In this document: piece by piece, positions 6,891 to 62,300 of the stretch
Numbering within the stretch: position 1 is the first letter of the stretch
Layout: each line of letters opens with the position of its first letter
Origin: Tribonema minus
Lineage: Eukaryota; Sar; Xanthophyceae; Tribonematales; Tribonemataceae
Assembly: GCA_017506865.1 (NCBI GenBank)
Contig: JAFCMP010000520.1
Span: 248,001 to 312,000 of the forward strand
Direction of reading: 5' to 3'
Length of the DNA: 64,000 nt
Program-made: the position numbers and the translations under genes
Notes under the pieces: model-generated
Databases searched by the model: none
What the model was told of the DNA's origin: nothing
What the model saw: only the letters and a program-made list of their open reading frames with translations

Positions 6891-9074
6891 TCACAAAGAC
6901 GTGCGCGACGCCCTCCCCGAAGCCCCCAGGGAGCTGACGGCCTTGGAGGCGCTCGAGCTGGTCCGCGACAGCGCCACCTGATTTGCGGAGGCCAGCAAGC
7001 ACCGACACGGTGGTGCGGTCATCTGGCAGGCGTTGGTCAGGTGCCAGGGCGTTCAGGGCTAGGGTTAGGGTTAGAGATGGCAACAGAAGTTCAGAACCAG
7101 CGCGTCCTTGGATGCCTAGACCTGTCCATTGCGAGCGCGGATTCAATTGCCACAATGGCACTTGTGTGGGCCGTTTGTTGCGCATTGGAGCACACAGAGC
7201 ACTGCCGCAATGAACCGCTGCGGCGCGGCACTCGATGCGCGGTCCAGATGCTGCACTGAAGTTGGTCGTGCTCACATGTATGCACACAAGTTGAGCACAA
7301 CGCGACAGGCAAAGTTGCACATGCGCGTTGAACCGCCACACAATGAGCTTCTATGGAGACTGTGGAGACATTGGCTGCGATAGGTGTGGCTCAGACTGGT
7401 TGCCGCTGTGTCTGCCCCCACTAGTCTAGTACTTCAAGCCTGCAACACAGCCTTAAGGCCCACCGAAGTTGATGTTTTGGACAAGTTTCCTCAAACTTGG
7501 GGCTTTTATAAATGCAACATCACAAGTACCTACCTGTTGGAGTACCTACCTGTCGTTTCATTGGTTGTCATCAAGACATTTTCAGGCTGTCTCATGACAT
7601 GTAAATTCCGTAGAGCAAGCTTAGATGCCATTCATCTGGGCTTTTTCGCGCCCTGAGCGAGAATTAATAAAAAGTACCTACCTGAGGCTCTGTGATGGAG
7701 GGTTTCTCGGCGTCCCCCTCTGCGGAGGCAGGGGGCGCCCTGGGGGGGTGCGCCACGCCGCTCAGGCCCTTGTACAGCACCATGTTGACGTGACTGCACT
7801 TGTAGGCGTGGTGCTCCGCTGAGAGGCCCTTGTGGTCCAGGAGGTCCTTCTGCGCACCCGCCTGAATGAGCTGCAGGGTTCGGACAGGGGATGCGAAACG
7901 TTGTTGTTCTTCAGAGTCGTGCATGCGCACGACGAGTCAAAGCGTACGCAACAGTACGGTAGCGCCAAGACCTGCTCGTCGACTTACAATGCCGTGCGAA
8001 ACACAGTGATTGAGGTCCTTCTGCGCCCGCCTGAATGAGCTGCAGGGGCGGAGGAGCCAGAGCCGAGATTCGGCCCCGTGTAATTTTCATCATTGCCACA
8101 TGTGCGCACAAGTAGTGAAAGTGGCGCTGGTTTCTTTCGCATGCAAAGCCTCTATTTTGTACCTGCACAGCAAGGCGGCAGCGCCGCTTGCAGGCAGTAT
8201 GTATTGTCGGGATCTGGCGATTGTGTCTAGCCCTAGCCCTAACCCTAGGTTCCCTGGAGGCGCTCGCCATTCCAGGGCTTTGTAAAAGACTGGTGCAGGA
8301 TACCGGTTGATGGTGGAGTCGACTGCTCTACACAACTTCACCATAGTCGTGTAGCCCGCCACCGCAGCAATTTGGCCCAGCTCATCTCATGCATTAATGA
8401 GCACACTAGTGTCGAGCACAAAGCGGAGCGTCGAGGATCGCGTACCTTGCGGCAGATGCCCAGTGCGCCGGCCTGACAGCACCACACAGGAGAGCAACAT
8501 GCAAGTTCAAAGAAAAGGGGTGAGGGTGATGTACCAAGCGACTGATTCAGCTTCGACTGCGCATCCCTCTGGGTGGACGCTTGCGCGATTCAATGTGAAG
8601 CCCCGCGGTCACACTGTTGCATCGGCAGTCGCTCATAGATCATGTCATTGACCTCCGCAAAGAGATGAGTCCCATGCCCGCGCTAGCCACCCAGTTCACC
8701 CCTGGGCAATGTGCACCGTCTCGCCTCGCCTGAGTACATGCCGGTACACGGAGATTACATACAGGTACATCATGCATACATCAGTCATGACTGCCACCTG
8801 TTCCGCGCAGAACGTGCAAGAGTACAGGCTGGTTCATTGAGAGTACGGGCTCGTATATCAACAGGACTGACTGGTACATGAGGGTACATTCTGGTACATC
8901 TAGAGTACAGACTGGTACATTGCAGCAGCGCTCACCTGAGCGGCGCGCATGAGCGCCGTCTCGCCGCGCCGGTTCCTCTGGTTCACGTCAACGCCGTCCT
9001 GCTTGAGCAGCAGCGACACCATGCGCTCGTGGCCGTTGGCGCACGCCGCTATTAAGGGTGTTCCGTAAGGGCAC
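6891..9074 (-). CDS. Giant gene, exons 51-54: last ankyrin repeats and Ser-rich C-terminus
   Basis: Exons 8936-9074, 8446-8472 (27 nt), 7682-7870 and 6891-6977. Exon 51 reads YGTPLIAACANGHERMVSLL and GVDVNQRNRRGETALMRAAQ; microexon 52 gives AGALGICRK; exon 53 LIQAGAQKDLLDHKGLSAEH then a Pro/Ala/Glu tail; exon 54 VALSRTSSSASKAVSSLG and a short Ser/Arg end with TGA at 6891-6893. The microexon restores the ankyrin register exactly (ALMRAAQ-AGALGICRKLIQAGA), good evidence that it is real. All four exons join in phase 0. Confidence 0.85.
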
Positions 9075-12000
9075 CTGCGCCGCAGCAATGGCGAAAAAGG
9101 GAAGAGCGCGCTTGTGAGTGGCGCAGGAAACCATGATTGTGAGCGATCTGTTGCAAGAGCCGTGCCTCGGGCAAAGGCGGCGCAGGGGATGCGTGCTGCT
9201 GCATTGCTCCACACAATGTACACTGCGGCTTTGGCAAGTGGTGGTGCGGGTGTCTTCATTGAATACAACTGCAAGTGACACCGCCGACTGCAAGAAGGGG
9301 GCGGCAGGACTCGCGGTTGCTGCACAGCTGCACATCCCCGCCCCCGGCCTCCATGTTCTGGGTTTGGAGAGGGGGGTCTGCAGACTTACTTCACCGTTCA
9401 ATGTCAAGTGTCGAGTGAAATTGATCGTGTCACGTGCACAAAATGTGTCGTCAGTGAGCATCATTGACACCGCCCGCCCTCTTGCCTCGAGTCGCTGTCA
9501 GCCGCGGCAGCGCTCACGCCCTGCTTGAGCACAAGCTAGCCCTCCGCTGCGGCCGCGGGGCTAATCCATCATACTCCAATATCATGATTAAGGTAAAGCA
9601 TGTCACATGCAAAAACGTATCGTGATTGAGCATCATTTAGCATCATTGACGCAAAACGCCCTCTTGCCTGGAGTCGGTGTCGGCCGCGGCAGCGCTCACG
9701 ACCTGCGTGCCACCAGCTTGCCCTTCGCCGCGGCATCAATGCTACTTTGTCATGAACTGCAACATCATGAGTAAGGTGAAGCATGTGCAAAACAATCGAG
9801 CATCGTCGATATTGGATGTCCTCTTGCCTCGAGTCGGTGTCAGCCGCGGCAGCGCTCACGCCCTGCTTGAGCAGGCCCAGCGCCAGCACGAGCTTGCCCT
9901 CCGCCGCGACCTCCACCAGCGGCACGCGCTCGGGGTCAGCGTTGATGATGCCCGCAATCTGGCACAGTAATAGCGGCAACACAACCATGTTCGTCGTTCA
10001 GAAACAATGTGGTTGCGACTATGCAGGCAGGCGACAAATAAACAAGCAAGCGTAAATAACAGTTGAATCTGCAAGGTACACCACCGGGGTGCTTCAACAG
10101 AGGGCCGTGCAGCGCCCTGTGTGATGCTGCCTGCAACGTGGCACCGAAACAGCAGCAACGAACTCGTCGAACCTGCAGCACCTTATTGATGCTGCATGTG
10201 AGCGCATCGACCAGGGGTTGCTGCACCAGCAGATGTTGGGGCCCAAACAGCAGTGCCGCTCGCTTCGCGTTAGCGGACCAGCACCCTCGATGGGGCGATG
10301 CTCCTCAGGGAGAACTTGCGATTACATAGCCCCAGATTCGCTGCTCCAGAGCTTAATCTGTCAAGTCGTGATCGCAAACAGCTGTACTCAGGCTTGCAGC
10401 ACCCGTACTGCGAATTTGAACGGCATTGCTCCACAGCGTGCACATCTGACCCTAGGGATGATGATTTGGTCTGCACTTGCAGTCTTGCCCAACCCTCCGC
10501 CCCCTCGCGCCAGTTTCAACGCTATTGCTGAATTGCCACTGCTGTAGGAGTCGCGTCAGCCATGCAAGGACCTGCGTTGGCAGTCTCGTATGGTCAGCCA
10601 CCCCCCGGGCGTTCCGCTTGTAGCCCCAAACCCCACCCTGCCCCCGATCCCCCGATGCCGACCCTACTCGTACCTGATGAAATGCGAACGCACTAGGGCT
10701 TACGTCAACAACAACTATGGCCTGTCTGAAGTTGTATGACCAGATCCGCCGCAGTGCGCCGCCGGGTGTGCCGCGTTTAGCCCTGACCCAGTTTACCCCA
10801 AATCCCAGTGCCTACTCTATCCCTAGTTCATGAAACGCGGCTGCGGAAGCGCTTACGTCAACATCAAGTAGGGCTGACCTGCAGTTGGCCGACTTGTATG
10901 GCCACGCGCGTTGCGCTGATGGCCATAACCTGACCCTACCCCCAATGCCTACCCAACCCTAGTTGCCCAATCCCAATGGCTGCAACTAGGAATTGTGGCG
11001 CTGACCTGCAGTTGGCCGACTTGTATGGCCACGTCCGTCGCGGTGCGCCCGCGCGCGTCGCGCTTATAGCCCTCACCCACTTCTACGCTGCCCAAAACCT
11101 ACAGATCCCTCGCTGATGAATCCCAATGGCTTTAACTAGGGCTTGTGGGGCTGACCTGCAGTGGGCCAACTTGTATGGCGAGGTCCGTTGCGGTGCGCCC
11201 GCATGCGTCGCGCTTGTAGCCCTCACCCTACCGTCAGACTCTACTCTACCCTCCCCCTACCCTGGTTGGTGAAACGCGACCGCGCCAGGGTTCGAGTTTA
11301 CATCAAGTAGGGCTGACCTGCAGTTGGACGACTTGTATGGCGAGGTCCGTCGCGGTGCGCCTGCGCGCGTCGCGCTGACAGCCCTAATCTGACCCTCCTC
11401 CCAATGCCTACTTACCCATAGCTGGCCAAAACCAATGGTTCTAACTAGGGCTTGCATTTCATGGGGCTGACCTGCAGTTGGCCGACTTGTATGGCCAGGT
11501 CTGTAGCGGTGCGCCGCCGCGCGTCGCGCTTGTAGCGGTGCGCTCCCTCGTGCAGCAGTGTGAGCACCGTGGACTCGTTGCCGTAGCGCGCCGCCAGCAT
11601 CAGCGGCGTGCGCCGCATGTGGTCCCTGCAAAGCGCGCACGCGCACGCGGATGCGGCGGGGGGGGTGCAAGCGTGTGTTTCCATCAAAGGTACTCTGCAC
11701 TTGCGGACACACTTGCCATCGTCCGACATGCCTGAGGTCAATCTGCCCATGCAACATTTGGTGGATAGCTGGGGGCTGGTCAATGAAATGCGATGTGAGG
11801 CGCGCCGAGTGTACGTCGAGGCGCTAGATGTGTTCGAATCAGTGGGAGCTGAGCGTTGTGCACCCTCGCTGCCGTGGCGCGCCGTCAGCGCAGTGCAACA
11901 ACACTCTCTTGGTGACAGTACACCTATGACAGCATCTCGGATCAACGCCCGGGTGGTGGTTGCCGCTGTGTGTGATACTGACCTACCTTGCATCAACGAT

Positions 12001-15000
12001 GTCTTGTGACAGTGCAACAGTACCCATCAACGGTACAACAGTACATGTGTACTGGCGCGTACATGTACGTACCTCGTATCAACGTCCAGGTGGTAGTCGT
12101 CGCTGCCGAGAAGCCCTGTCACCACGGCGTTCCGGCCAAAAATTGCCGCGGCTGCAAAGGCGGGGGGAGCGGGCGACCATCCGCATTGGTGGTGAGGGTG
12201 CAGTCACAACGCGTGCGAAGTCGATGCTGGCATATACTCGCGGGTGTGAATGCAGAGTTTTGGGGCACTGAAAACTCGTCGTGACCGAGTGTTAATGAGG
12301 TTCCACTGGACATGGCGACCAAGCACCGTCGTGTAGGCAAACCACCGTGTGTGAGCCGCTCGCAGCACTTTGCCTTTCTTGTACCAGGTCCAGGTGATGT
12401 GCAATGCTGCAGGGTTAAGGTTAGGGTTAGGGCTCCGTTTAATGTGTTGCAAGCTTAAGGCGGCGCCGGCACATCTTCACGCAAGTTCACAAGCACACTG
12501 CCATTGCAAACCAGACAGCACATGGTCACGTGGCCAACAGCAGGTCCTGAACAAAACTAAGCTTGCATTTGTAAAGTATGCGACAGGCTCTGTGATGATG
12601 CTTCGAGTCTGATGTTCGCCGCTGCTTCCGATGTCGAAATACAAGCGGAGCCACGGTCTGCTGGGATGATCAAATGGGACTGAGGGAGGGTCCCTGAGCT
12701 CACATCATGATTCATGATGAACTAGGGTATGAAGTAGGGTTTCAACGCTCACCTGCGAGGGGCGTGAGCGTGCACACCGGCGGCTCGAAGCTGCGCTTGA
12801 ACAGGTTCGCCTGCGCGCGGGTGCGGAAAATGATGCAAATTTTGCGCGCTGAGTGTGGCCGAAGCAGCAGCGCGAATCTCGCCTTAGTGCATCTCTGTGC
12901 AACACCTGCTGAACGGCGCTGGCGAGCTGCTGTATCGGGCGATCCTTGTAGCCAAACGCTAAGGTTCTGACATCTGCGCGTGCCTCAAGTACGAAAAAGC
13001 CTGCTCTTCTGCTTGAGGATACATGACGACAGTGCAGAAAACGCTTCGATCACTGCTTCTTGACCCGCGTCATACTTCAAAGCGCACAAAGTTTATGCAC
13101 ATACGCAGGGTGTACTAGGCACAACCTCGCGAATGGTAATTAGCAAGAAACTAGACACAAACATGTCACTGATACAAGGTGGCCAGATGGGCCAGGGGAA
13201 TTAGGGTTAGGGCTCGGCCGCTCTCACCTTGCCGGCTATGTCCGGCACGTTGCGCGTCTCCGGCGACTCAAACAGCTTGAGCATGTCTGCGCAGAGCAGC
13301 AGAACGGGGCATTGCACGCGCAGCAGGGAGTCCCTGTCAGCGAGATGCCTGATTGCGATGCACCTATAATTGCTGAGAATTGCCACTGACACGTCGACGG
13401 TGCCTGGTTGCCCAGTGCGCACGCCTGCAAGTTTAACCCTATGTCTACCTTAGCCCTAACCCTAGCCCTACCCGAAAAGGCAGATGAGCGCTGCTGCGGC
13501 GCGGACCGTCAGTGCAAGTGCACCGCTCCTGACCCCAACTCCTCACGTTTTTGACGCGGATTGCCGCTCCTTGACTGGCTTCATGCGCACATACATGTGC
13601 TGCCCCATGAAGGCCGCACGGGTAAGCCGTCTGCCATATACATTATGCTCCATGACTGACACCAATTTCAAGAAAGAAATGGTGTGTGTGTGCTGAACTG
13701 TCTAATTTTGTGGCGTTCGCCATCATGCATGACTTGAGGGACAGAGAACCACAGCGTTACTCATGTTAGTCCACCAGTGATGGTTCAGTCATGCTGTTCC
13801 TTGCATCAGCGCCTTCATACTTCCTAAAAAAACACTCGAATGCTACAAGCTTGTACACAGAAGTCTTTTTGACTAGTGGATACGGGGGCGCTGTTTGACT
13901 CGTGGCCATTTGCTGCAGCAGCGGCGACCACGGTTATTGGTGGAAGGCACTTGCGGCTAACCATCCCTTGTCACCTAGAGCTCTACGATCTTTTGATTCA
14001 TTTTCATTCTTTGCAAATCGAGCTTGTCTTGGTCAAGCGCTGTTCTGCACTGCTGCATCAGGTGTGTCCCACTCTGCCAACATGACAACATACTTCTGTC
14101 AGAGGGTGGGGATGTGGGTTGGGGACAGCTGCGGTTTGAATTAGGGTTTGAGGCAGCGTTAGGGCTAGATTCTGACCTATTGGCCGAGCCTCGTCAGCGG
14201 CGACACTTGGGCTGGGCTAAAGGCTAGGAGCTTCAGGTGGGCTCTGAGTTGGGGCCAAGGTCATGTGCACACGATCTCCCCCCTGGAGGGGCTGGAAATT
14301 TGGGCTGGATTTGGGATCGCTAGGGTTTGAGCTAGGGGCAGGTTCGCAACTAGGGCTAGCTTCTGACCTGTCGGCCGCGCCTCGTCCGCCGCAAACCCTG
14401 GGCTGGGTTTCAGGCGAGGAGCCAAGTGGCTCTGAGTACATCGAAGTATTTGAGCTTGGGTCAGGATCGCTAGGGCTTGGCGTAGGGTTGGAGTCAGTAT
14501 CAAAGCTAGCTTCCGACCTATCGGCCGCGCCTCGTCCGCCGCAACGCCCTGAGCTGGGTGTAAGGCTACAAGTTACAAGTGGGCTCTAGGTTGGGGCCAC
14601 CCAGGGGCTAGGGATGTGGGGTTGAATTAGGATTGCTAGGGTTTTGAGTTAGAGACAGGTTTATAACTAGAGCAAGCTTCCCACCTATCGGCCGCGCCTC
14701 GTCCGCGGCGACGCCCTGGCGGATGAGCGCCCAGACGTCGTCCATCGCGCCCGCCGCCGCCGCGACCTGTATGTGTCGCTTAGCGGGGTCCACGCGCAGT
14801 ATCGACGCCAGCGGGCTGTGCCCCGACACGGTGCACCACCAGCTGGCCGTGTGCCCCTGCGCGCGCGGCGAGTATGGAGATAGTCAACTTCAAGGCACAA
14901 CTTCAACCTGCAGTATCGACGAGCAGTATCATGCGAGCAGGCTGTGGCCCGACATGGTGCGCCACCAGTGCGCACTTGCAGTCTGCGAATTATAACAGCA

Positions 15001-18000
15001 GGCGATGCTCACGCTGAAACTCACCTGCGCAAAGAAGCTCAACTGCATGCAGAGGCGACTCACCGTGCCGTCCTGCAGGTTCCTCACACTTGCAAGTTTG
15101 CCAATTGTAATAGTGAATGAAAATGAATGAGCGACACTCAGGCCAACGTTCAAGTGCGTAAGAAGTTCAACTGTGACTCACCGTGCCGTCCTGCAGGTTT
15201 CGCGCGGCGCCCGCCTTGAGCAGCCGCAGCAGGACGTCCTCGTTGCCGCCCGCGGCCGCGTACATCAGCGGCGTCTGCGCGCTCGCAGCAGCAGCAGCAC
15301 AGCGCTCAGATCAGATTCAAAGTACAACTTAAATTTACGTTGACTGCGGCGTCTGCGCGCTCGCAGCAGCAGCAGCAGACTGCGCTCAGATCAACTTCTA
15401 TGTACACTCTAACGCCAGAGAGGCTCAGCATTCGCGACGCATTGCTGAAACAGACTGCGAGGGGCGTCGAATGCCGTCCAAATGCGTGAGGCAATACTTT
15501 CCTACGGACCTGCTTTGCAATTACTTCTAGAATTATGAACAGATAATACATCATACACGAACATGGGCTTCAGTACACTCCTTCATGGAGTGTGACAGTA
15601 TGACACGTGTGAGTGCACAACGTCTGTATGCTTTGAAGTAAGGACTTTAAAGTGTACTTGAAAGTATAGAGTTACCTGGCCGAGCACGTTGGGCATGTTG
15701 ACCTCAATGCCCACGTGGCCCAGCAGCCACGACACCACGTGGACGTGCTTTGCGGTCAGTACTTGAAGAATATGAATACATCCCGCACGAGCATGCGCTT
15801 CAATACATTCTTTCATGAAGTGCTAAAGCATGACGCGCGCGAGCGCATCACAACATACCCACGGTTTGAAGTCGGTACTCTGAAGTGTGCTTTGAAGTTC
15901 GGAATTACCTGGCCGAGCAGGTTGGGCATGTTGACCTCGATGCCCACGTGGCCCAGCAGCCAAGACACCATGTGCAGGTTGGCGGCGCTGCAGGCTGCAA
16001 TGAGCGGCGAGTAGAGCTCGTGGTGCCAGCCAAAGTGATCGCGCCGCCTGTGCGACACAGCACCGGGACACCGGGAGTCTCACATGTCAGCAACAGCAAC
16101 AAGGCTTGATGCGTACAGTCCATCTGTGCGAGCAAGCGTCCCAGACGCAATCACGTCGTATTGGTCCCATCCCGTCGCCCCCCTTCTCGGTGACTATGAG
16201 CCCTCAGTCATTTCCGCCCCCCCATCTGACCTATGCCTGGAGGTAGCCCTGACCCTAACCCTAAGCATGCGGCCCCAGAAGAGCGAATGAACCAGTGACA
16301 GCGTGCCGTTTGACAGATGTGCCTGGCGAACCAGCAGCCCTCGCTGATGCATCTCCCCCTATCTGAGCTGTGCCTGGAGTTGACGCCGATGCCCTCTTCA
16401 GGCATTGCGTCAACGTCATAGCACGTCGTCGCAGTTGGCGCAACGTCACGCTGCTCAAATGAACCAGTAATAGTGGCACAGTGCCCCGCCCCATCGGCAG
16501 ATGTGCCTGGCATACCAGCCCTCACGGCCTTATTCGTTTACAACCTTCTTCCCTCCTGTCGCCCCTCTTCTTGGCGACAGTACCAACCCTCATTGACTTC
16601 CTCCCCCTGTGCCTCACCTGTGCCTAGAGTTGACGCCAATGCCCTGCTTCATCAGGGCCTCCACGTCGCCAATGCCACCTTCACGGGGCGACGCGGCACC
16701 CCAACAACACGTCAACGCAAGCTGGCGTCACGTGTGTTGCGTCGCTTCGCAGCAGCACCATGGCCTTGGCAGAGGTGCTATAGAAAGAAGAGCCCCTGCT
16801 GAGTCCCCCCCCAGATCCCCCTCACCTGTGCCTGGAGTTGACGCCGATGCCCTGCTTCATGAGGGCCTCCACGGCTGCGCCGTCGCCGGCCGCTGCTGCC
16901 GCGCACACGCTGAGCCTGCACAGTTTTCAACGCAACAAGGTGGCGACGCGGCGTGGCTTGAGCGTGTCAGGAGCCAGTGATGCACATGCGCGGCAGCCAG
17001 TGATGCGCATGCGCGGCAGAAACAATGCGCTTCTATAGTGTGCTGACGAATATCTGCTCGGACGCTGCAGCCGCCGCCGCGCACGCGCTTAGCCTGCAAG
17101 GGTTAAATACGATAGGCGAAAAAGCGAGAGCGTTGACTCAATGTGCACTGTGGCAGGCAAGATGCTGCGCTGTTGAGCAGTGTCGTAAGCGCTTGTTGCC
17201 GCGCAAACCAATCATATGGCAGCCTTCAAGCATTGACAGAGAAGCAAGGAGGTTGGTGATGTGCCAGCGCTCCGGGGCGGCCCGCCACGCGTAGAAAAAT
17301 GTTCATGAACCTCAAAGTCGATGTATTCTTCTGCGAAGCGTTTCCCTACGCTACAGCGAGTGCCTCCGCACGTGCACAATCTGTCATGATATCCCACTCC
17401 CGTGCCTGCGAGCAACCTTGCCATGCCGACTCACCCTGACAGAACCCTGCCACTTGAAACAGACGCAAGGGTGTGTTTTGTCTGCTACAGTACATGCAGC
17501 GCAAAAATAAATTCAAAAATGCACACTCGACCTGCAGAATTCAACTTCACCTGTGCGGATCGTGGCGCAGCATGCCCTCCACGCCGCGGTACCCGCGCAT
17601 CCCCGCCATGTCGAGCGCTGTCTCGCCCTGTTAGGGTTGGGATTAGGGCGCAATTGCAAAAGGGCGTCAAACATGTGCAGCACATCTCTGAAATGCCTTC
17701 ATAGCGGCGTACGTGCCTTCTGCATGGCTATGTCTAGAGCGATGTAGAAGCGACGCCCTCTGGCAGCTGCGTGAACCCCCTGTTGATCACTGTGCCGCGT
17801 AACGGCTTGACGCACTTGGAAGGAGTACGGCGTGTCTGCGCAAGGTCTTCCTACTGCCATGCGCGCATGCTTGGCAACATCTGACACCATGCGGCAGTTG
17901 CGCACGTGCTCGCTGACCTTGTCGATGGTGCGATAGCGGTCCGCACGCAGGCTTAGGGTTAGAGTTACTGTCTGCACAGTGCTCCTCGCAGCCTCATGCG

Positions 18001-21000
18001 AGTGGCTGGCAGTGACACCAACAGTTGCGCGCGCGTTGTCTGACCTTGTCGTTGGTGCGGTAGCGGTCCGCGCGCAGGCTGAGCAGTAGCGACACCATCT
18101 TCTCGTGGCCGGCCTGTGCGCGACAGCAGCGATCAACGCATTCACAGCAACGGGGCAGCAGCGATCAGCGCACCACACCACTACTGCGCAGCAACGCTCC
18201 GGCATAAGTACATTGCTATCGTGTGGCTGGCTGACACACGAGTGCTCTGCCAGCGACACCACCTTCTCGTGGCCGGCGTGCATGCGACATCAGTGATCAA
18301 CGCATTCACAGTAAAGGGGGGGCAACGACGATCAGGCAGTGCTGCGGGGATAACAACATGACCTTCTCGTGGCCGGCCTGAATGCGACTTCAGCGAACGA
18401 CGCATTCACAGCAAAAGGGGGGCAACAACGATCAGCCAGTGCTGCGGCGATAATAACATGACCTTCTCGTGGCCGGCTTGCATGCGACATCAGCGATCAA
18501 CGCATTCACAGCAAAGGGGTGGCAGCAATGCTCAGCCAGTGCTGCGGCAGTAGTAAAATGACCTTCTCATGGCCGGCCTGCATGCGACAGCAGCGATCAA
18601 CGCATTCACAGCAATGGGGCAGCAGCGATCAGTGCATAACACCACTACCGCACGGCAGCGCTCCAGCAAAAGTACATTGCTTTCGCGTAGCTGGCTGACG
18701 CACGGCTCATGTCAGTGCTCTGACAGCCGGTACCGTCACTGTCTCGTAGCCACGGTGCGCACCGCAGCAGCAATCAGCAGCCCACATTCGTGCAGCAGCG
18801 TTCGGAATACATGTGCGGCGCTGCGGCAGTTGACACACGCACCCCAGTCAGTTCTCAGAGCTGTGTCTCATCACTGGCAGTGTTGCGCTGACATCACTGG
18901 GATATGTCACCTGTCAGTTGTGTGCACCAACAGACGCCGAGCTAAGGCGTATATACTTTGAGGTTCAAAGACAATGTACTTGAAGTATGCCGCTCCGCGG
19001 TGACGCACCTGCGCGGCATACATGAGAGGCGTCATGTCGTGGCAGGACGTGATTGACCGTGAAGCACAGCGCGAGGCGCACATACTTTGAAGTTCAAAGA
19101 GATACACTTGAAGTATGCTGCTCCGCAGTGACGCACCTGCGCGGCATACATGAGAGGCGTCATGCCGTGGCGCCCGGGGCAGTTGACGTCCGTGCGGAAG
19201 CCGCGCCTGCCGCCCGGCAGCAGGGCGCGCACCATGTCCTCGTCCTGCACGCGGGAGCGTCGCAGTTGATGTAAGATACACTTCAACAGCCATCACAGTT
19301 GGGCAAGACACTTGTTGTGTGTTCGGCACATTCTGCGGTCTCCCGCTCGATGAGGCCTGCCCTTGATCAAGTTTGGCAGCAGGGCGTGCACCACGTCCTC
19401 GTCCTGCGTGCGGGAGCGTTCAGTTGAAGCAAGGCCATGTTGGGAGCGTCACAGTTGAGGGGAGACAGTGGCGCCACGGAGCTGGCGCGCCAACTTGCCG
19501 TCGCCCATTCGGTCAGGCGTGCGCGATGTGCTGCTCCGCAAGCGCGCACGCGTTGCGCACTCGTTGCAGGCATGCACACCGAGCGGTTGCACCACCAACG
19601 CGATGTCACTTGCCTGGTGCCGAAAAGCATCTAACCCTAACCCTGCCCTCACCCTAACCCTTGCCCTAACCCAGAATGAGCTCCACGAGGGCTATTTGCA
19701 GTGCACAAGGTCCGGTGTTACGCTGACTCTTAGCCTATGCAGTGACCTGCATATGAGCCGTCTGCAATGCACAGGGCCCGGTGCTACTTAGGCCATGTGT
19801 TCAATATTTTCTTCGACATCATGGATGCTGTGTCGCAAGGGCGCGGCCAAAGTGCAGCATGGCATTGAATGAGCGCAAGACGTCACTAAGCTCCACATGC
19901 TCATGCATCCACAACATCAAGCGCATCTCAGCAGCGTCGTCCTGATTTGATCCGAACCATGTTCCTTATCCTGACGCAAATTTCATAACATACATCCAGC
20001 AGGCATGGCGCCACAAACACTTCATCTCATCAGCGTCACCGACAGCAGTGGCGGACAAAACTTTACTACTTCCCGCACAAGCACTATGCATGTGCTAATG
20101 TGTAAACGCTGCATCAGATTCAGTTAAACACGAGCGGTCCTAGCCCAACTGCGACATTAGGCTGCAGGGCTGAGCTTGCAAAAGGCCAGCTCGCTGAAAC
20201 TTCCTACTCAAGCACCGCATTGGTCCGTGCGTTGTGGTGAGTCAACCTATTCATGTTGCTCGTCATGATGTTTCCTCAGGCTCAGGACTGGGGGCATTGC
20301 CGACAAGGTATGTAGGGCATGGACATGGTACATTTGCTCGGAGACAATGAGCGCCATGTACCCCCTGCGCAACTCAACTAAATCCCTTACCCATCATAAA
20401 TCAATGCGGCATCAGATCCTTCCGAACACGAACGTTGAAGGTTCAGACGAGTCGCCCTGCAGGGGCGCCAAGTACAGAATGCCAGCGCCCAGGGCTTGCT
20501 GCAGGCACCGACCTGATTGAAGACAGCGGCGACGAGCGCCGTGTACCCCCTGCGCGGGCAGCGCGCATTGGGGTCAACGCCCTGCGCCAGCAGCGCCAGA
20601 ACGCCCCTCACGTCGCGCTCTTTTGCCGCCTTGTACACCTCCACCTGAAGGAACAGAGAAAACACACCGTTGGTGGCAAACAACATAGTAGCGGTGCGTT
20701 CTATGCACCTAGTTTGAAGCTGGTTGCTCAAAACGCCTAGTTGGGGGATGCAGATGGTAATGCTTTGTGGCCTTGTGGACCTCCTCCTGTGGAGGAACAG
20801 CAGCGCACCAGCAGAGGATGAAAGGGTTTGTCTGAAGGAGCGGCGCTCGAAATGTCTGATTGGGGGGGACGCCCCTGACATCGCGCTCTTTTGCCGCCTT
20901 GTACACCTCCAGGTGGTGCTGCGGGACTCAAGCAATGACATGAAAGCGGTGCGTTCTGATGCACTGAGTTTGTGACGCTAGGTGCAAGTAGCGCCAGGAC

Positions 21001-23015
21001 GCCCTCGGTGTCGCGCTTGTTTACCAAGTTGCACACCTCCACCTATGGGGGGAAATACGCACTGGCGCTCACAAAGATATAGGAGCTCTTTTGCGACCTT
21101 GTATACCTCCACCTGTGAGGATCGAAAAGCGTGCCTGTATGTAGCAACAAATAACATGAAACGTTTCGTACCGATGCACTTTACTTGAGAGTGGTGCTCG
21201 AACGCCTAGTGGAGGGGGGGGGGGGGGGCAACGAAGGCAGATGGTGATGCCAGTGCCGCCCGAACCGCGTGGTTTTGTGAGCTTCAACACGCACCCCCAA
21301 ATGTATTTCGAGTATATTTGTGATGCAAGCACTGTGACAAGCATCATGTGGCGATGCGCCTCAGCTGCGACCATTGGCACAACCCCCCCTGCGCAATAGC
21401 GTACTTCACAAGGTACTTCCAGTTGGCAGGGACACGCTGGTGTGCGCGCAAGATCATTGCAGACGGGGGGCACATTTTCAAGTAGCTCAAAGTTGAAAGA
21501 TATCCTTCCCTTACCCTTTTGGGGTCGTATTTGAGTATGTCGCCCAGCTGAGCGCTGCCAAACCTTTCTGCCCAGTCCAGTGCCGTACGACCCTCCATGT
21601 CCCGCTGATACCTAAGGTTCAGTGGGGTTGGAGGTAGGGGTGAGGTTAAGGTGGTGCCAGACGCGACGGGCAGCAGGGAGCGCAGAGCAACAAGTTGTCG
21701 CAAGCCCATCGAAGCAGCTGTTGTTTCAGAGCCCACAACAAACATGGCTGCGTCGTCAGATCCGATGTACATGCATGCGCTCAATGCGCAAACGCTGCCA
21801 ACGTGAAGATGCGACCGCGCTTGCCAAACAGCATGTCTGCAACCTCAAATGCAGGGCTGAGTAAGTTCACAACTTCGAGACCATTGGCTGGGAGCTGGTG
21901 CGCTGTCATGGTGCAATGTGTGTAATTCTTGAACTTGTGGTTGGTGGCGGAAAACCAGTGAAACTGCACCTCCACGGGATGAGTACAGTGATGTGCTAGC
22001 TTATGCGTATTACTGATTATTGATTGAAGCGGAGAAAAGCCCAGATGTAATGATGTCGAGCTCGCGACCAGCATAAACTTTACAGAGCAGCACACTATCA
22101 ATACATCTGGCGCCGAAGAGTGTGTGATTGTCGGTTTGGCCTTGGCGGAACAACATCACAAGTCTTTGTCACCTCACAGTATGAGTACAGTGATGTACCA
22201 CCGTGTACTCTAAGTAGTGCAGTTCGCTACCCACATAATTATCCGCTCTGTGTGCAAGCAGCTTGACGGCGAAGGCCACCTGCTGCAAGTATCGGTCCAG
22301 GCCTTGGTGGCACAACATTACAACTCCCTGTCACCTCACAGTATGAGTACAGTGATGTACCACCGTGTACTCTCAGTAGTGCAGTACACATACCTGTCAG
22401 CGCCATGCGCGAGCAGCTTGACGGCAAAGGCGACCTGCTGGTGCGGCGCGGTGCGCCCCTCCCTGCCCATGCAGTACATGAGCGCCGTTTCGCCTGCGAT
22501 CACGCGTCAACGGAACTGATCAATTCACGTTCATTGATGAATTGCATTGAGCGCCGTGCATTCACGTTCATCAACGAAATGCATTCAGCGACGTGCTGGC
22601 TGAGTGGCCTCCCTGCCCATGCAGTACACGAGCGCCGTCTCGCCTGCGATCACGCGTCCACGGAACTGATTGGTTCATGTTTGTTAACTGAGTCCTTGCA
22701 GTTCCAGTGCTGAATGAGTGGCCTACCAGTCTATGCAGTACATGAGCGCCATTTCGCCTGCAATCACGCATGCATGGAGTGAATGAATTCATGTTGATCA
22801 ACGCAGTTTTGATTCAATCCATTGTTGATGGGCAGTGCAAATGTGACGGCACATGAGCGCGCAGCAGCTGAGAGTGTCAGGAGTACATGGGTACTTGACA
22901 TGAAGTGCGGTCTAAATGTATGCCTGCACTTTGTTATAGAACACTCGCTTTAGAATAACTTCAAAAACCTGCACAGTACATACATTCGTGTTCTGGTGCA
23001 AATGGCGGAGTGCAC

Positions 23016-23046
<31 letters not shown>

Positions 23047-50000: not shown

Positions 50001-53000
50001 CGATCCTTTAGACTGCGACGTAGTATCACAGTCACCAGAGGTCGCAAACCCGACGCCACTGCTGCGCGCTGCATCTGGGCGTTTATGAAATTGAGCTACG
50101 ATGACGCAGTGGCATGTGCTGATGGTGAGCAGTGTGACAGTGAGTGGTTATTACGCAGCAGCACTGCTCCGCAGCTCTCACCTTTGCCTCGGCGTCGTCG
50201 CCGCCTGACAGCGCGGATAGCAGCAGCGACGGCAGCGCAAAGCGCGTTGCATCGTGAGTGCGGTGCGAGGTATGTGTACAACGACGGTATGTTTGCAACG
50301 GCAGGGGAGCCGCAGTACGCGGCGCGGGTAGCGCAAACAGGAACGCCAAGCACGCAGTCTCTTGCTGCATGGTGCAGCAGCAAGCCCAGTGCGTCATGTG
50401 GGCAGCGCCCATGCAGTTCGCGAGATTCAACAAGTGTCGGGGCATTCGCGCTTGCATGCTGCTGGCAATCTAAAAGAGCACACTACGTCACAATTGAAGC
50501 CATCACCGTTGCTGCTGTGAGTGCACAAGTGCGGCCATGGGACCAGCGCATACCTCACGCAGATGCTGCACTGCGCACGGCCTGACCCTGGTACATGACT
50601 GCAAAGTACCGACATCCACATGCAGAACAGCTTGACAGGTGCTTGGTTTGCACGACTGTTCACAAGACTCCAGATCGCTAAACCCACACGAGAGAAACAA
50701 ACGGTTCTCTACTTTGACTGCACGCTGTTCACACTTCAAATCGAAACACCCACATCAGACAACCACAATTTGCTGCTTGGAGTCATGTGCGACACAACAA
50801 GCGCCGGTTGAAGTTATTGCTTGAAGTTACCTAGCGCAAGTCGCCTGGCCAGCCCGAGCATGAAGAGCGACAGGCCCTTGGGCCCCTCCAGCTCGTCCTG
50901 GTCGCAGCCGGGCTTCCAGCGCCAGAGCTGCAGCAGCGCAAGAGGCATCGAATCTTGAACTTAAACCGCAAGCAGCATCACAATTCAGTTGGTAAGCTGT
51001 AGTTGTTGCTGTTGGGCACCAGTCGGCGGTGCGAGTGCGCAGTGTGACATGTCGCTACGCCCCCATAACTCTCATGCTGCAATGTGGCCCCCGTAGCTTG
51101 TCGCGGTCGCAGCCAGGCTTCCTGCGCCAGAGCTGCGGCGTGCAAGAGGGAGAGACACTTCAAGTTGGACTTCAACTACATGCAGCATGGCACAAAAAAC
51201 CTGCATGCGTTCACCTTCACAGCAAGCCGACAGGACAATACGTGTGCATGAGGCAAATTACTTGATTACGCTGCACAATTCGCTATTGGGCGCCAGAAGT
51301 GATCATCGGCGCAAGCAACTCCACAATGTGACATGCCACCTCCTTGATGCCAGGGCCAAAGACGGCAGTGGCGCGCCACACGATGCTCTGGAACTGCATA
51401 TTGAAGTACAGCTCAGGGCTTGTGCACTGGCCTTCCTCACGCCGATGTACACATCGCAGCGCACGCTTCAGTGGTCTTAAAGTACGCTTTGAAGGAGCAT
51501 ATCATCACTTGAAATGCATGCTCAAGTAGTGCGAACTCACCTTCGTGACGCCGAGGCTGAAGATGGCTGCCCTTGAAGTGCACATTGAATTACAATTCAG
51601 CACTTGACTATGATCATACTGAGGTACAGCACGGTAGTTCAATACCGCACCTTCTTGACGCCAAGTCCGAAGATGGCGGCGCACTGCACGATGCACTTGA
51701 CCGTCGGGTCCAGCGAGTACAGGTCGTTTGAGTCCAGCGCGCTGCCCACAAGCAGAAGCAGAAGCAGCAGCAGCAGCAGGAGGACACAGAAGATTGAGGA
51801 GGTCAGTACAGGGCGGCAAAGACTCGCGCCATCGCACTCTGGCTCTGACTCTGGCGCTCATTGGGCAAGTGCCCGTGAACTAGGCACTTCGCAGCAGCAG
51901 CGGCGGCAGTAGGGCGCAGGAGGGCATCACTGGGGGGCGTCAATTCGTATGCAATCAGAATTTGGGCAGCGCCAATGTGGAGGAAGCGAGGCAAGGAAAC
52001 CCCACTGAGCTCATGTCGACGACAGCGGCTCACAGCAGCAAAGCTCCCCATCTGTAGATGGGTTAGCGTCGTGACTGGAGCCTTGCATTAATTGCACCTG
52101 CTGCACTCCGTGAGCGTCCCCGTGCCTGTCAGCGTCTGCAGATCGCCGACGCTGCCAAGACTGATGTCATGTTGACGTTAAACTGATGCTGACGTGTGCC
52201 TTCAGAAGTGGTGCGCGTCAATAGGGGGGGGGGGGCTCAGGGCCAAAGTCAAAATTAGGATCAGGCCTCATATCTCATCGCACCTGCTGCGCTCCGTTAC
52301 CGTCCCCGCCCCCGTCAGCGTCTGCAGGTTGCCGGTGCTGCCAACAGACTCATGTCATGCTGACATCAAACTCACGGTGACGTGCGCATTAAGCAGCAGC
52401 AGAGTTCCCCATCGGTAGCACGGCGGGGAGGCGGGGATCAGGGTTACAGTTGCACGAAAGTATATTGAGCCTCGTACATACATGTACATCGCACCTGCTG
52501 CACTCTTTGAACGTCTCCGCCCCCGTCAGCGTCTGCAGATCACCGGCGCTGCCAACAGACTCATGTCATGCTGACATTGAACTCATCGTGACGTGCACCT
52601 TGAGCAGCAGTGCTCCCCGTCGATTACCCGCGGGCAGCGATCAAGGTCACAGTTGAAATTTGAACTGGTCCTCTTGTACTGATCGCACCTGCTGCACTCC
52701 GTGAAGGTCCCTGCACCCGTCAGCGTCTGCAGATCGCCGGCGCTGCCCACGGACTGGCGGCGGTCCAGCGAGGGGGGCCCCCCAGACCCGCCCCCCCCGC
52801 TCCCCGCGCCGCGCGCGTCCTCGGCGTGCGCCTCCCAGTGGAAGAAGCCCTCGCCTGCGAGCTGCTCGTCCTGCATGAAAGGCAAGAGGCGGCGCTCTCT
52901 TTGAGGATCCCGAGATGCTTCAGTTGAGGAGGGACGTGCACCGTGCCCCCGTCCACCAGCGGGGGGGGTGGGGGGGGGGGGGAGGGGCTGGACACGCTTG

Positions 53001-56000
53001 CGGGGATTCAGGCTTGCTGCAGGCGTACCCATGATTCAGGCAGGCAAGCAGTGTTGAAGTCCGTGGTTTCAAGCTGAGGGCGCCGAGCACATCAGCATGT
53101 TGCGGTAGTCTTATGAAGCTTGTAGACAAGATGTGGTGGGGCAGTAGCGGAGTAGGGCGTGCCCCACTCGCAGAAGGGGTTCAATGCAGCTCTGCAGGTA
53201 CGGTGTTGCTGCGCGCACGTGAGCCTTTCTTGCAGCACAGGATAACATGAGAAACGAGTGCGTTTTGATGCGTCCTGCACAGTGAGGCCCCAAGCACGAG
53301 TACTCCTGCTAGCGTTCAGGTAACAGTTGCAGCCGCAGCTCACTGCAAGCCCTGAGCCCGGCATGCAAGGCCCGGCTGGGGCCATGTGCGTTTATAGAGT
53401 TAGGGCTAGGTTGGTGATGCTGTTGCGCCTCAGGCATTACACTTAAGGTCAGAGCGCGTAGGCATAGAATTAAGTTTAGCGATAGGCCCAGGCCGCCGCC
53501 GACGGGTATGGCGTGCCCGTGATTTAGGCCAAGCAAGCAGTGGTGGAGTCCGAGGTGTCGAGCTGAGCGCGCGGAGCACGTCAGCATGTTGCGGTGCTCT
53601 GGTGAAGCTCCAACACAACACTTGCTGGGCAGCAGAGTAGGGCGTGTCCCACTCACAGGGGGAGGTTACCCTGAGCGTCTGCTACCCATACATGCCCCTG
53701 CCTTTCTATGCTAGCCTACCGGCTAGTACTCTGTGGCATATCCTAAGCGACCGTTACTAATATACCTCTACCCCTTACTGCACAAAGTTCAAGTTTGTAC
53801 CTCAGCCTTGGCGCCCCCCTTTATAGCGCGGCGGAACACCTGGAGGCCGCCGACGACGGGTATGCCATGGAGTTGAGAGGTGGAAGCACACACCCTAAGT
53901 GACCGCTACTCGGATACCTCTACATACACTTCACTGCACAAAGTTCAAGTCTGTACCTCAGCCTTGGCGCCCCCCTTGGTCGCGCGGCGGAACCCCTGGA
54001 GCCCCCCGACGACTGGTATGCCGTGGAGGTTGCGCAGCTGTATGCCGAGGCGCGCGCGCGGGAACGCCACCGCGTACGGCTGCGCGTGCAGGCGCGGAAG
54101 TGCGGACAAATGAGGGAGAGTTGCAGGTGATGTACAATTGGAGGGCAGTTGAAAGATGCGGACATCGCGATGTCATCATTATGATACCGGAGGGAGCTGT
54201 TGAAAAATGCCGGCATCGCGATGTCACGATTATGACGTCCCAAGGGCGCTGACACGGCACGGCTGCGGCCGCAGAGTGAATGCATGCGCGGTGGCTGCTC
54301 GCAGACTGCGTCGTCGTGATGCTGCCGCGACTGTATGCCGAGGCGCGCGCGGGGGGAACGCCACCGCGTACGGCTGCGCGCGTAGGCGTGCAAGCACGGA
54401 CCAATAGGGATGAGTCACAGGTGAATCACAATTGAGCTTGTCGTGCAAGATGCGCGCATCATGTTGTCATCCTTACAGTATTGCGAGAACGCTGATGCGG
54501 CACCACGCTGCGCGCGCAGGGGGCTTACGAACGCAGTCGAACAAGCCAGTGTGAATGCATGCGCGGTGGCTTTTTGTGGGTAGCATTATCATGGTGCTGC
54601 CACGATGCACGCCATAGACTGGCGGCCGTCGTGTGTGTGTCGCTGTGCCCAGCGGCAGCCACGGCGGCGCTCAAATCTGATGCCTCGCGCGCCGCCGCCG
54701 CCTTCAATACTCCAAAAAACCGTTGAACGGTCCTCCAATTGTGGAGGTTCACCTTCAACCGGACAAATGCCGGACAACGTCCAGACACATGGAAGCGTCT
54801 ACAAGAGTATGTAGCAAGCCGTGCACAATTCCAATCACATGTAATCCCTGCAGCACGGAGAACACCGATTGGAGCATGTGGCGACTGGACGTGTCCGAGG
54901 CCCTCCAATCATTGCCCTTGCGCTGCAGCTCATCGTCATCCTAGATAACGCGCACGACGATGATGCCAATTTTTCGACAAATGACCTGCACATCACCGCA
55001 AACTCAAGGCCATTCACAATACATTTTACATATTTCGCTCGAAGTATTATTATTTGGCCCTTTTGAGGCAGGGTGGGGACGACCCGCCAGCGGCTTTGCT
55101 GAAGTTTGACGCTTGAGTTTGACCTGTGGCAGGCTTGGCGGAGTCAGCCCGTGGTTAAAATGCATGCCTTCAGATTCAGCACGTCATGGGCACGTCTGAC
55201 GTTAACTCGCGTGCCGAGAGGTGCCGAGCCGCATGACTACGCGCTGCGTTTGCGACGTCTTGCAGGCGGGCTTTTCCTCCCTTCTCGCGCAGTTGAAAGC
55301 CGTGGATGTGAAGCGGCTCACAACGCGTTCCCCACTTTGCGCGGTGATGTATCATGATAATTACGAGCTGCGCGTGCTCGATGGCACTAACCTACATTGA
55401 CTGCCCTTGTTCGCTCGCGCAGGAGCGAACGAGAAAGTGGTGCAGACGAGGCGCCTTTTGGCGCGCGCGGGGGCGCAGTCTCGCCAACTGCGACCTCTGC
55501 TGCTGCCGCGGCGCCCCAGTCGTCTGGGGTCTTGCATATGGATGTCGATACCCCCGCCCTTCCTTCCACACTCCAGGGCGCGCGAGCCGGCGGCGTTACC
55601 CAGGGCGAGGCCGTTTTAAAAGCCGAGCCTCGGGAGGCGCGCCAGGCAAGTGACGCACCACCCCTAATCCCATCATTTGAGATGCGGCAACGGTATGGAG
55701 GTACCGTCCGCGAACAAGCAATCTCAGTCGCGAACCTGCGGCGTTCGGATCGTGCCACATATTACTCTTGTGACGATCTGGAAGCCGACGAGGCGGACTA
55801 TACAACAGAAGACGCTGATGACGCTACCCTTCATGACTTGCCTTCATGACTTGCCTTCATGACTTGCTGAAGGGTAGCGTCATCAGCGTCTTCTGTTGTA
55901 TAGTCCACCTCGTCGGCTTCCAGATCGTCACAAAAATAATATGCGGCACGCTCCGAACGCCGCGGGTTCGCGACTGACACTGCGTGCTCGCGGACGGTAC

Positions 56001-59000: not shown

Positions 59001-59278
59001 AACACATTGATGATGGCCTCTGCGATGAACACGAGGTCCTCGAGCATTAGCGACTGACCGCACTCCTTGCAGCGCAACAGCGCACGGCGTCACACGGACC
59101 TGAACCCAACCATACCCCTCACTCTGGATTCTGACCCATGACTGCTACCTTACACCTAGCCTTGATTTTCCACCCTACCCCTAAATAACAGCGCGCTCAC
59201 GTGAGGCTGCCCTCCTTAATGAGCGGCATCGCATCGCTGGCAATGCTGGCCGTATCGGCAGCGTCGCCAAATGCGCCC

Positions 59279-59310
<32 letters not shown>

Positions 59311-62300
59311 CGGCACCAGTGTGCTCGCCTCGCTGCCGGCGTCGCCGCCGCCGCCGTTGCGGCGCTCGCGCAGCTGGCTCAGGTCGCGGAGCTGCGCGCG
59401 CGGCGCAAGCCACAAGGATTGAGGATCATTCACACACCGAACAAAGGTGCGGTTTGTGATGCGGTTTTTGATGTAATGTTGCCCCCTCGTGGAGTACGTG
59501 ATGCATGTTTGCTTGAGGGGCGAAAACACCTAAGTATGTGGAGCACGACTCTCTGACTGGACTTCCTCACGTGTGGGGCTTCTGTCAGTGAGATGTGGCC
59601 CAGAACATCGCCTTCATGCGCAGTCTGGTGCGCTCAAGACACGGTGAGCGACAGCTGGTGCTTGCTGAGCGCAGCTAGATGTAGATTCTATGTTGTGAGA
59701 ATATCTCGCAACAGATCAAGATTCCCTGTCCATAAAATTATAGGAATAGATTCATAGTTTTCGAAAAGTGAGTACATTTTGTGCCATTCGTGCAGGAGTC
59801 GTACGGACGGCTGGGCAAGCAGAAAAGCCTTTTTGTTAAGGACTTGGCAATGCACTCAGCACTGTGCTCAGGGGGGGGGAAGGCAGATGTGTTACGCAAG
59901 GCCGGGTTAGCTAAGCGTCAGATCCACATTGAGCTGAGCATATCGCTGGCGCGGGAGTTGGCGGAGCGCGTCATGGCATACACACGTGGAGCGCGAATGC
60001 TGGGCTGTGTTGCGGCGCCGGTATCCAAACTCCTAGGGCACAGCGCAGACTAGGCTGCTGCGTTGACGCAAGCTTTTCGATTGCATAGGCAACCCGGCCT
60101 CCCTTGGGCCTTTATAAATACAAGTCCATACGTACAATGTGTCCAAGAATAGAAATAGAAATAGATTGGTTTCTGTTGAATGGTTAAAAATTTAATGAAT
60201 TTTTAAAGAAAAAAATACAATTTATGGAATCAACTAAAATCATTACTTCGTAGTAGCAAGCACACACATTTTAGTAACAGAAGAACCCCTTGAAGAGCAG
60301 CTCGGGTAGGGTGTGAGTCAGAGATTATGTGAATGTCGCAGGTGCGGCTCTCCGATGTCGCGGTTCTGCGAGGCGCACGGTGGGAAAAGGGAGGGGCTCG
60401 TGATGCCTCACAATAACGAAGCACGCGGACACCATTCGAGATGCACCGACGATCCGGCCATGCATCAGGGGCGCTCGAGTCTTGCCTGCTTTAACCATGT
60501 GGGGCCGTCTCCTTTGGATCGGGGGTCAGGAAGAAGCCCACTCTAACCTGCCCCGTACCGTTAATACCCTCAAAATTTCACCCCCTCCGGACATACAACG
60601 ATATCTCCGTACGCTCAGGGTCAAGGCTGTGCTGACGCACATGAATGTGTCATCCCACTTTGGGGTTACAGTAGGGTCAGGCCAGCTCACATACTCAGCA
60701 TGGAGGTTCGGCGAGCCCTGACCCAGATCCCTAATTTTTTCTGCTCAATCCCAACCTTGTAAGTTTAACCTCAAACCCAAACTGCAACCCTGAAACAAAC
60801 TCTCAACCTGCTCGAGCCACGTCGGATCGTCTTCTTCGGCGCATGCGAGCGCCTCTCTCTCATGGACGTGTCTTCCGGTTTCAGGGTTGAGGTGAGGCTA
60901 GCTCACATACGAGGGTTGGGCGAGCCGCGCCCTGATCTCAACCTGCGCTCACCTGCTCGAGCCACGTCAAATCGGCTTCTTCTGTGCATGCAAGCGCCTC
61001 TTTCTCCTGCTGAACCCTGACCTCACCTACCCTATCCCACACTTTAAACTACTCTTAAACTGACTTTCACTTGCTCCAGCCACGTTGGATCGTCTTCTTC
61101 GGCGCACACAATCGCCTCCTTCTCCCGCTCAACCCTAACCTTATCTCTGACCCTAACACACACTCTCACCTGCTCCAGCCACGTCGGATCGTCTTCTTCG
61201 GCGCACGCGAGCGCCTCTTTCTCCTGCCACGTGCCGCCCTCCTCCTCCAGCCACCGCGTCAGCCGGTCGTTGACCTGCAGAGGTTGAAATTGTTAAAAAC
61301 AGCACGGCAGTTGAGCGGTTCAGGCGCGGCACATTTAGCGTTCACCATCGACCTGCAGAGGTCAAAGATGGAAAACAGCACGGTGGTCACGTGGTTCAGG
61401 CGCGGTACATTCAGAGTTCACCGCACGCCGGCCTGATTGTGCTAGTCCAGCCGATATGGCGGCATTGGTGAGGACACGTCGGATTCGGTGCAATTAAGTG
61501 GACCAGGCACAGTGCGCCCATATTCACCGCAGTGCGCATGGGGTCACGGCCCTCCGTGTCCAGTGCGTTGCGCAAGGTCAAGCACGGTCGAATGGCCTAA
61601 CGCAGTCTACGGAAGGTTGACAATGTTGTCGTGCAATCCATGCACACGGGTAATACGTACTTCATGGCAACAAGTGGTCGCATGCAGCATAGCCGTGTTT
61701 TTATTTTGTAGTTAGCAATAACAGTAATTTAAATGACGCACTCGCTATGTTATTTGCTGTAAACTTTGGTTTTCACACCTTATTACTGAATCTAGCTTTT
61801 GATATAGACGTATATGGGCTTTTCGGATGCAGGGGAAAATACAAAACATTTTTTGTTGTACGGCATGATGCTGGTGAGGACGAATGAGGCTTGTTGCCAC
61901 GGTTCTATCCAGCATGCCCCCATCATTCTTTTTTACACTTAAGCAGCTTTGGCGACGTGCTTGTTTGCTGGCTCCCACCTCTGCACATTATTTGTCTCGA
62001 TCCACGCGCATCAGCCGCAGCCGCAGCTAAAGAGCCACCTTGACAAGATTGCGAATGGCAGCAATGAGTCATTTTAGCATTGATAGCAATGACACAGGCG
62101 GGATGGTAGGTATCAGGTCGCCTTACCTTGCCCCAGTACTCTTCGGGCAGTCCTCCCGGGTGATCAACATAATCCAAGGGAGCGACCTCCGGGGCGATTT
62201 CGGAGTCCTGCGGCGTGCAGCGCGGTGGCATGGCTCAGTTGTGTCAGCGCACGTCAGCGCACAGATCTGATGCTGAGCACTGCACCATTGCGGCGCGAAA

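Follow-up and report, generated by a model that had tools for sequence, protein, structure and literature searches.

Tandem duplications straddling splice junctions have accumulated in several intron-rich genes of Tribonema minus

Introners and introner-like elements form dispersed families that are common to many genes and build introns recurrently. In the potato RdRp gene, a single tandem duplication across an intron-exon boundary created a new intron (Ma et al. 2016, PMC4974935). The same article also cites the AGGT-duplication model of Rogers (1989), the case of ATP2A1 (Hellsten et al. 2011) and two fission yeast genes with 24-bp AGGT arrays that are spanned by introns (Zhu and Niu 2013). 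Here we report on a stretch of 64,000 nucleotides from contig JAFCMP010000520.1 of Tribonema minus (hereafter the window), which is part of a genome of 158.2 Mb in 554 contigs, and on the giant VPS9-ankyrin gene that it harbors. In this and several other intron-rich genes, tandem duplications of about 155 bp that straddle splice junctions have accumulated, and copies of exon edges, which we term echoes, are found in the adjoining introns.

The potato case is similar in that the duplication crosses the boundary and leaves the copied exon edge within intron sequence; in T. minus, 130 of the 181 echo hits from five loci (the giant gene and four others) have at least three bases on each side of the junction. 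The potato duplication is reported as one event in one gene that resulted in a new intron, whereas the arrays reported here are serial, affect both junction types of several genes and lie in existing introns. The Rogers model and ATP2A1 share with them a neutral duplication that is tolerated thanks to splicing, but there, as summarized in the same source, an exonic unit makes a new intron, from the first GT to the second AG, while here the unit is mostly intronic and the spanning hits adjoin existing junctions. The fission yeast arrays likewise consist of several tandem copies with splice signals, yet of a short exonic unit in two genes, in contrast to junction units of about 155 bp at 71 of 156 junctions (51 of 78 exons) in the five loci. 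Single junction-crossing duplications are known, and serial, junction-biased arrays in several genes look new; our literature search found none, but it was limited and represents weak evidence of absence.

Exons were called with a purpose-written gene finder, for which Pfam-matched exons from this genome served as the training set and whose penalties were stiffened after a first version had overpredicted (432 exons). Curation left 43 exons for the giant gene, located in the interval from 7 to 62 kb; the original prediction had counted 54, so some are missing. Before counting, the predicted exons 15676-15747 and 52284-52337 were dropped as likely echo copies and 61065-61274 was cut back to 61170-61274. 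The joined exons from the middle part of the gene match the Pfam families VPS9 (1.2e-20) and Ank_2 (3.1e-49), and the joined exons also show a weak PDZ match under the cut-off.

With a threshold of at least 36 bits, the self-comparison of the window revealed 108 direct repeat pairs at distances below 1 kb and 18 at larger distances; inverted pairs numbered 2 within 1 kb and 8 beyond it. A recurrent process that builds introns is a trait shared with introners, but instead of similar sequences across unrelated introns we observed mostly local repeats: 108 of the 136 pairs are direct and local and 28 are not, and two 1-kb array stretches, one from the window and one from a myosin gene, matched only themselves in a genome-wide search confined to these two. 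Exons are touched by 39 of the 46 local arrays of the giant gene, and 31 extend across a junction with six or more matched bases on either side. In the junction-by-junction search, 38 of the 86 junctions, belonging to 29 of the 43 exons, had an echo whose exonic part exceeds 10 bases, a stronger signal than the original claim of at least 27 of 54 exons, and at 37 of these 38 junctions the echo lies within 400 bp, at the last one 1.9 kb away. The echoes are distributed over 24 donor and 14 acceptor junctions, and eight exons (starts 15182, 18045, 19137, 33740, 39321, 40934, 42243 and 53957) carry them at both ends, in agreement with the originally noted co-occurrence of donor- and acceptor-side arrays. 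The adjacent eL29 gene had been described as free of arrays; window positions 1-7000, which include the eL29 piece at around 4792 (plus strand), indeed have 1.2% repeat coverage versus 24% of intron positions. The gene and its echoes are located as follows.

7682..61274, minus strand, giant VPS9-ankyrin gene from our own gene finder; ends may lie farther out
7841..8047, minus strand, acceptor-side echo, exon 7682-7870
9428..9873, minus strand, donor-side echo array, exon 9860-9958
10602..11536, minus strand, donor-side echo array, exon 11472-11625; at least 4 echo copies
14142..14719, minus strand, donor-side echo array, exon 14685-14856
15057..15199, minus strand, donor-side echo, exon 15182-15274
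15268..15406, minus strand, acceptor-side echo, exon 15182-15274
15545..15974, minus strand, donor-side echo, exon 15909-15987; most of the exon without its acceptor end
16167..16873, minus strand, donor-side echo array, exon 16826-16915
17895..18704, minus strand, donor-side echo and acceptor-side array (period 100, 4 echo copies), exon 18045-18113
18945..19171, minus strand, donor-side echo, exon 19137-19244
19216..19433, minus strand, acceptor-side echo, exon 19137-19244
22852..24125, minus strand, donor-side echo array, exon 24098-24175; 305-bp period, 3 echo copies, the nearest 98% alike over 53 bases
24439..24855, minus strand, donor-side echo, exon 24788-24922
25321..25835, minus strand, acceptor-side echoes, exon 25228-25341
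32463..33017, minus strand, donor-side echo array, exon 32965-33050
33289..33766, minus strand, donor-side echo array, exon 33740-33817
33810..33919, minus strand, acceptor-side echo, exon 33740-33817
34273..34895, minus strand, donor-side echo array, exon 34820-34950
35641..35817, minus strand, acceptor-side echo, exon 35617-35668
38722..39353, minus strand, donor-side echo array, exon 39321-39416
39368..39638, minus strand, acceptor-side echo, exon 39321-39416
40793..40961, minus strand, donor-side echo, exon 40934-41026
40990..41578, minus strand, acceptor-side echo array, exon 40934-41026; about 151-bp period, 3 echo copies
41789..42284, minus strand, donor-side echo array, exon 42243-42359
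42330..42941, minus strand, acceptor-side echo array, exon 42243-42359
48515..48989, minus strand, acceptor-side echo array, exon 47799-48557
50881..51149, minus strand, acceptor-side echo, exon 50831-50927
52082..52755, minus strand, donor-side echo array, exon 52689-52870; 3 echo copies
53742..54028, minus strand, donor-side echo, exon 53957-54079
54038..54571, minus strand, acceptor-side echo array, exon 53957-54079
60787..61227, minus strand, donor-side echo array, exon 61170-61274; 3 echo copies

Circular shifting of the repeat footprint covered 20.8 junctions (sd 3.7) compared with 37 of 86 observed, a null that we judged too lenient because arrays may cover whole exons in it. We therefore place more weight on a forward simulation of uniform tandem duplication with substitutions, small indels, compensating deletions and conserved exons, in which duplications within an exon or around a whole exon are discarded and junction-spanning ones are neutral. 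Four parameter sets with 24 replicates each yielded a mean of 17-25 arrays in the giant gene with 4.8-5.3 touching exons (maximum 10), whereas 46 and 39 were observed, and a mean of 4.1-4.3 junction-spanning arrays (maximum 8) versus 31. Because the simulation gives fewer arrays at similar coverage, it is fairer to compare fractions: an exon is touched by 39 of the 46 real arrays, in contrast to about one fifth to one third of those in the simulations. Minisatellites or random duplications would lie independently of the junctions; these arrays do not. The original prediction of serial, junction-centred intron growth holds in its centring on junctions beyond random tandem duplication; the lengthening of introns (p 0.052) and the addition of copies at the exon end (p 0.07) are only hinted at.

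The window comprises further repeats of a different kind. About 6 kb of the giant gene (54600-60700, with the called exons 58539-58713 and 59201-59391) lack local arrays, and the rest is array-rich. A 139-bp direct repeat (54702-54840 and 57253-57390; 93% alike, 2.55 kb apart) lies in one large between-exon gap and is unlike the local arrays. A dispersed repeat of about 110 bp is found at 13896-14004, 32652-32761 (inverted) and 39459-39538; the two mutually inverted copies are 94% alike, the third 80%, and it looks like a small transposable element. Short TTAGGG/CCCTAA runs are present in the giant gene at 7060, 8230, 12410 and 19631, as if telomere-like repeats seed introns.

The comparison was extended to eight 10-kb stretches, three of them on the contig of the window, with a repeat coverage from 0.027 to 0.499. 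Four stretches with the gene models judged best were analyzed for arrays touching at least 10 nt of exon, after eight predicted exons (echo-like or spurious) had been dropped: L044 encodes a myosin (Pfam myosin head, 8e-140), L043 a cohesin STAG protein (1.3e-9) and L047 a protein with PB1 and ZZ domains; the gene model of L041 has no Pfam hit. Arrays touch exons in 9/9 (L041), 6/6 (L043), 13/15 (L044) and 5/8 cases (L047), compared with simulated fractions of 0.34, 0.40, 0.48 and 0.45, respectively. The observed count was reached in 0/40 replicates for L041, L043 and L044 and in 2/40 for L047, each with fewer arrays than observed. The first three loci together have 28 of 30 arrays touching exons, and one example is the myosin piece with echoes at 14 of its 18 junctions. 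Repeat units placed without regard to junctions in other genes would have spoken against the original prediction; with 33 of 38 arrays of the four genes touching exons, compared with the simulated fractions of 0.34-0.48, the prediction was not refuted. L042 has a weak gene model: six of its seven arrays touch exons on the model of one strand and one on that of the other.

The anatomy of the echoes was determined from the nearest copy with at least three exonic bases at 42 donor and 34 acceptor junctions of the five loci. The shortest period per junction ranges from 65 to 233 bp with six exceptions (268 to 1947), and the medians are about 155; the exonic part measures 10-83 bp at donors (median 48) and 3-107 bp at acceptors (median 38). 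A unit of about 155 bp is composed of some 45 exonic bases, the rest being intronic, in line with the originally noted inclusion of intron sequence in the repeated segment. There is one hit at 31 junctions, two at 15, three at 17, four at 5 and five at 2. Exon parts diverge by 0.096 and intron parts by 0.199, a ratio of 0.48 over the 68 pairs in which both parts span 20 or more columns, and the mismatches between exon and echo amount to 7.6, 7.1 and 17.3% at codon positions 1, 2 and 3. This pattern is as expected if a conserved exon, changing mainly at synonymous sites, is compared with a freely drifting echo, and one neutral branch for positions 1 and 2, two for introns and nearly two for third positions is what the model would give. 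As the original prediction had stated, the copies are decayed and often keep their splice dinucleotides, namely GT in 61 of 67 donor echoes and AG in 34 of 39 acceptor echoes. Scores beyond the lower quartile of the real sites are attained by 57% of the echo donors versus 3.3% of all GT, and by 54% of the echo acceptors versus 7.2% of all AG; judged by these predicted scores, the echo sites still look like splice sites. The median intron length is 666, 888 and 1216 nt with echoes at 0, 1 and 2 ends (n = 11, 24 and 7). The nearer echo is the more exon-like one in 43 of 70 comparisons (p 0.07), a hint that new copies may be added from the exon side.

Could tandem duplication be blind to junctions, with an enrichment that is apparent because the conserved exon copy keeps old duplications visible? 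The exon-echo divergence of about half the intron divergence fits this explanation, and with exons masked the intron coverage looks flat in relation to the distance from the junction (near-junction coverage 0.217, null 0.205, p 0.38). Enrichment as pure detection bias was considered on this basis and overturned by a pseudo-exon control and the simulations. Given that the conserved exon copy aids detection, intron sequence was also tested alone: with exons masked, the 30-nt flanks of real junctions are covered to 0.223, those of pseudo-exons placed in introns to 0.123 (sd 0.039; 0 of 60 draws as high), and simulated flanks to about 0.04 at similar overall intron coverage. The masked picture of no enrichment is wrong because masking and selection both deplete edges under the null; since masking truncates edges, pseudo-exon masking turns the flat coverage into an excess. 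The coverage of donor halves (0.22) and acceptor halves (0.14) of introns does not differ significantly (p 0.21). Moreover, the simulation includes the detection bias and still produces about 5 touching arrays versus 39, and the intron parts of arrays are detectable with exons masked (80% mean identity), so wholly intronic arrays of like age should be visible. Short ancestral introns were set aside as a rescue of the junction-blind null: without deletions the touching fraction reaches at most 0.74 (observed 0.85; 8 replicates each), and this only with introns starting at 120 nt, a coverage of 0.69 and a final median of 168 nt, compared with 0.24 and 888 nt in reality. Junction-blind duplication is in our view unlikely.

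Selection for junction-spanning duplications, either because clustered sites recruit the spliceosome better or as regulated decoys, would explain the high site scores and the survival of GT or AG in 95 of the 106 echoes; this is somewhat above the retention of about 79% predicted from exon columns that are 89% alike, and mild retention is possible. However, the codon-position pattern and the exon-to-intron divergence fit neutral echoes, decoy use would put intron sequence into the mRNA, and the divergence appears to be accounted for without selection for echoes, which makes this explanation a little less likely still. Certain echoes have an open frame between AG and GT, for instance the three 54-nt copies between 52098 and 52548, and might be taken for real alternative or mutually exclusive exons from exon duplication. 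Tandem exon duplication would copy the whole exon with both splice sites, but of the 146 echo hits that include 10 or more exonic bases none extends to the far end of its exon, the nearest copies comprise 3-107 bp of exon (a single longer hit covers 205 bp of a 405-bp exon), and mutations affect all codon positions; an origin as true cassette exons was weighed and dismissed, and we regard alternative exons as very improbable. Tandem duplication does create introns (PMC4974935), and echoes might be remnants of intron birth by Rogers-type AGGT duplication. Such a birth would place the tail of the upstream exon at the acceptor end, whereas the echoes adjoin their own junction with intron in the unit, and the self-comparison shows no match between the two arrays in the four window introns that carry one at each end; of all explanations considered, we give this one hardly any credence.

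We regard a junction bias of the duplications as quite likely and, with somewhat less confidence, consider it probable that they arise preferentially across junctions, that the exon-proximal site stays in use and that the copies drift. Wholly intronic duplications are rare though they should be at least as harmless, thus suggesting that birth and not survival is tied to junctions, and the bias is most simply mutational. A donor duplication would yield the order exon tail, GT, intron, exon tail, GT, intron, and the mRNA would be unchanged if the outermost (first) donor stays in use; the acceptor side would be the mirror image, with the acceptor next to the exon remaining in use. The extra copy, now intron, would drift, lengthen the intron and leave competent-looking decoy sites. 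More tentatively, a mutational process may read junctions at the DNA level, via RNA-DNA hybrids or co-transcriptional splicing, and duplicate nucleosome-sized pieces, so that splice sites would be the points from which introns lengthen, with functional-looking decoys accumulating inside the introns. An RNA-DNA hybrid would be the likeliest trigger because only RNA carries the exon/intron border sharply, and spliced RNAs end exactly where the junctions lie. Our preferred candidate, which we put forward with considerable doubt, is an R-loop of spliced mRNA or excised intron with its edge at the junction, followed by staggered nicking and fill-in; chromatin at exon edges would be an alternative mark, and the period is close to that of the nucleosome.

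Several observations weigh against preferential duplication across junctions. All exon positions depend on our own gene finder, and the simulations match coverage only roughly (0.30 simulated vs 0.54 real in L044) and make fewer arrays than observed (17-25 vs 46 in the giant gene, 4-6 vs 6-15 in the others). The divergence is over-dispersed between pairs (chi2 161 on 68, p 2e-9), so some copies may be converted or constrained, and the class of 95-100% alike copies is thin (3 of 69 pairs vs 13% in the simulation). For intron lengthening there is no more than a trend (rank correlation 0.30, p 0.052; p 0.15 in a three-group test), and L047 is by itself not significant. The 10-kb stretches L053 and L054 contain no arrays, and the single array of L048 is clear of exons; exons are touched by one of two arrays in L046, two of five in L055, one of three in L045, one of three in L056 and one of two in L057. 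Of 44 small loci centred on ankyrin, kinase or light-harvesting complex (LHC) matches, 35 were examined and nine left out, and 26 matched exons were called; echoes adjoin 4 of the 19 donors and 3 of the 25 acceptors of these Pfam-anchored exons, and a predicted exon is touched by 18 of the 32 arrays in the 35 loci. Junction-linked arrays recur in several genes, yet not everywhere: L053 and L054 have none, and the small loci show few echoes.

Some of these loci deserve a comment of their own. L053 is located next to L044 on contig 1, and both have myosin-like exons (the Pfam search covered L044) but 0 and 15 arrays, respectively; according to our reading of the predicted protein, L053 holds the start of the myosin gene of L044. 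L056 and L057 (contigs 90 and 179) share a 3.8-kb stretch that is 95.6% alike, and the kinase and ankyrin matches of the two contigs correspond hundreds of kb apart, which is indicative of haplotypes or a young duplication; no echo-rich gene was seen in the shared stretch in this haplotype comparison. Dense arrays are found at positions 3782-4887 and 8853-9679 of L045, of which one set lies away from the predicted exons and the other within an open frame; at a guess, they might represent a mobile element or a repeat protein. The light-harvesting family has at least 92 matches in the genome among the matches listed, and one LHC protein resembles PDB chains named ACPI, CAC, FCPI and LHCI. This marks the organism as a photosynthetic alga, and the chain names point to a red-lineage type; the matches to the rubisco model did not resemble rubisco.

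The origin and the lengthening of intron sequence are long-standing questions, and few source sequences have been identified. In this one genome, dozens of junctions disclose the source sequence, the border concerned, the period and the age of the copies, which makes the mutation spectrum of intron growth measurable. The echoes also represent a natural graded series of decoy splice sites for studying spliceosome choice. If the duplications truly start at junctions, RNA processing would feed back on DNA mutation.

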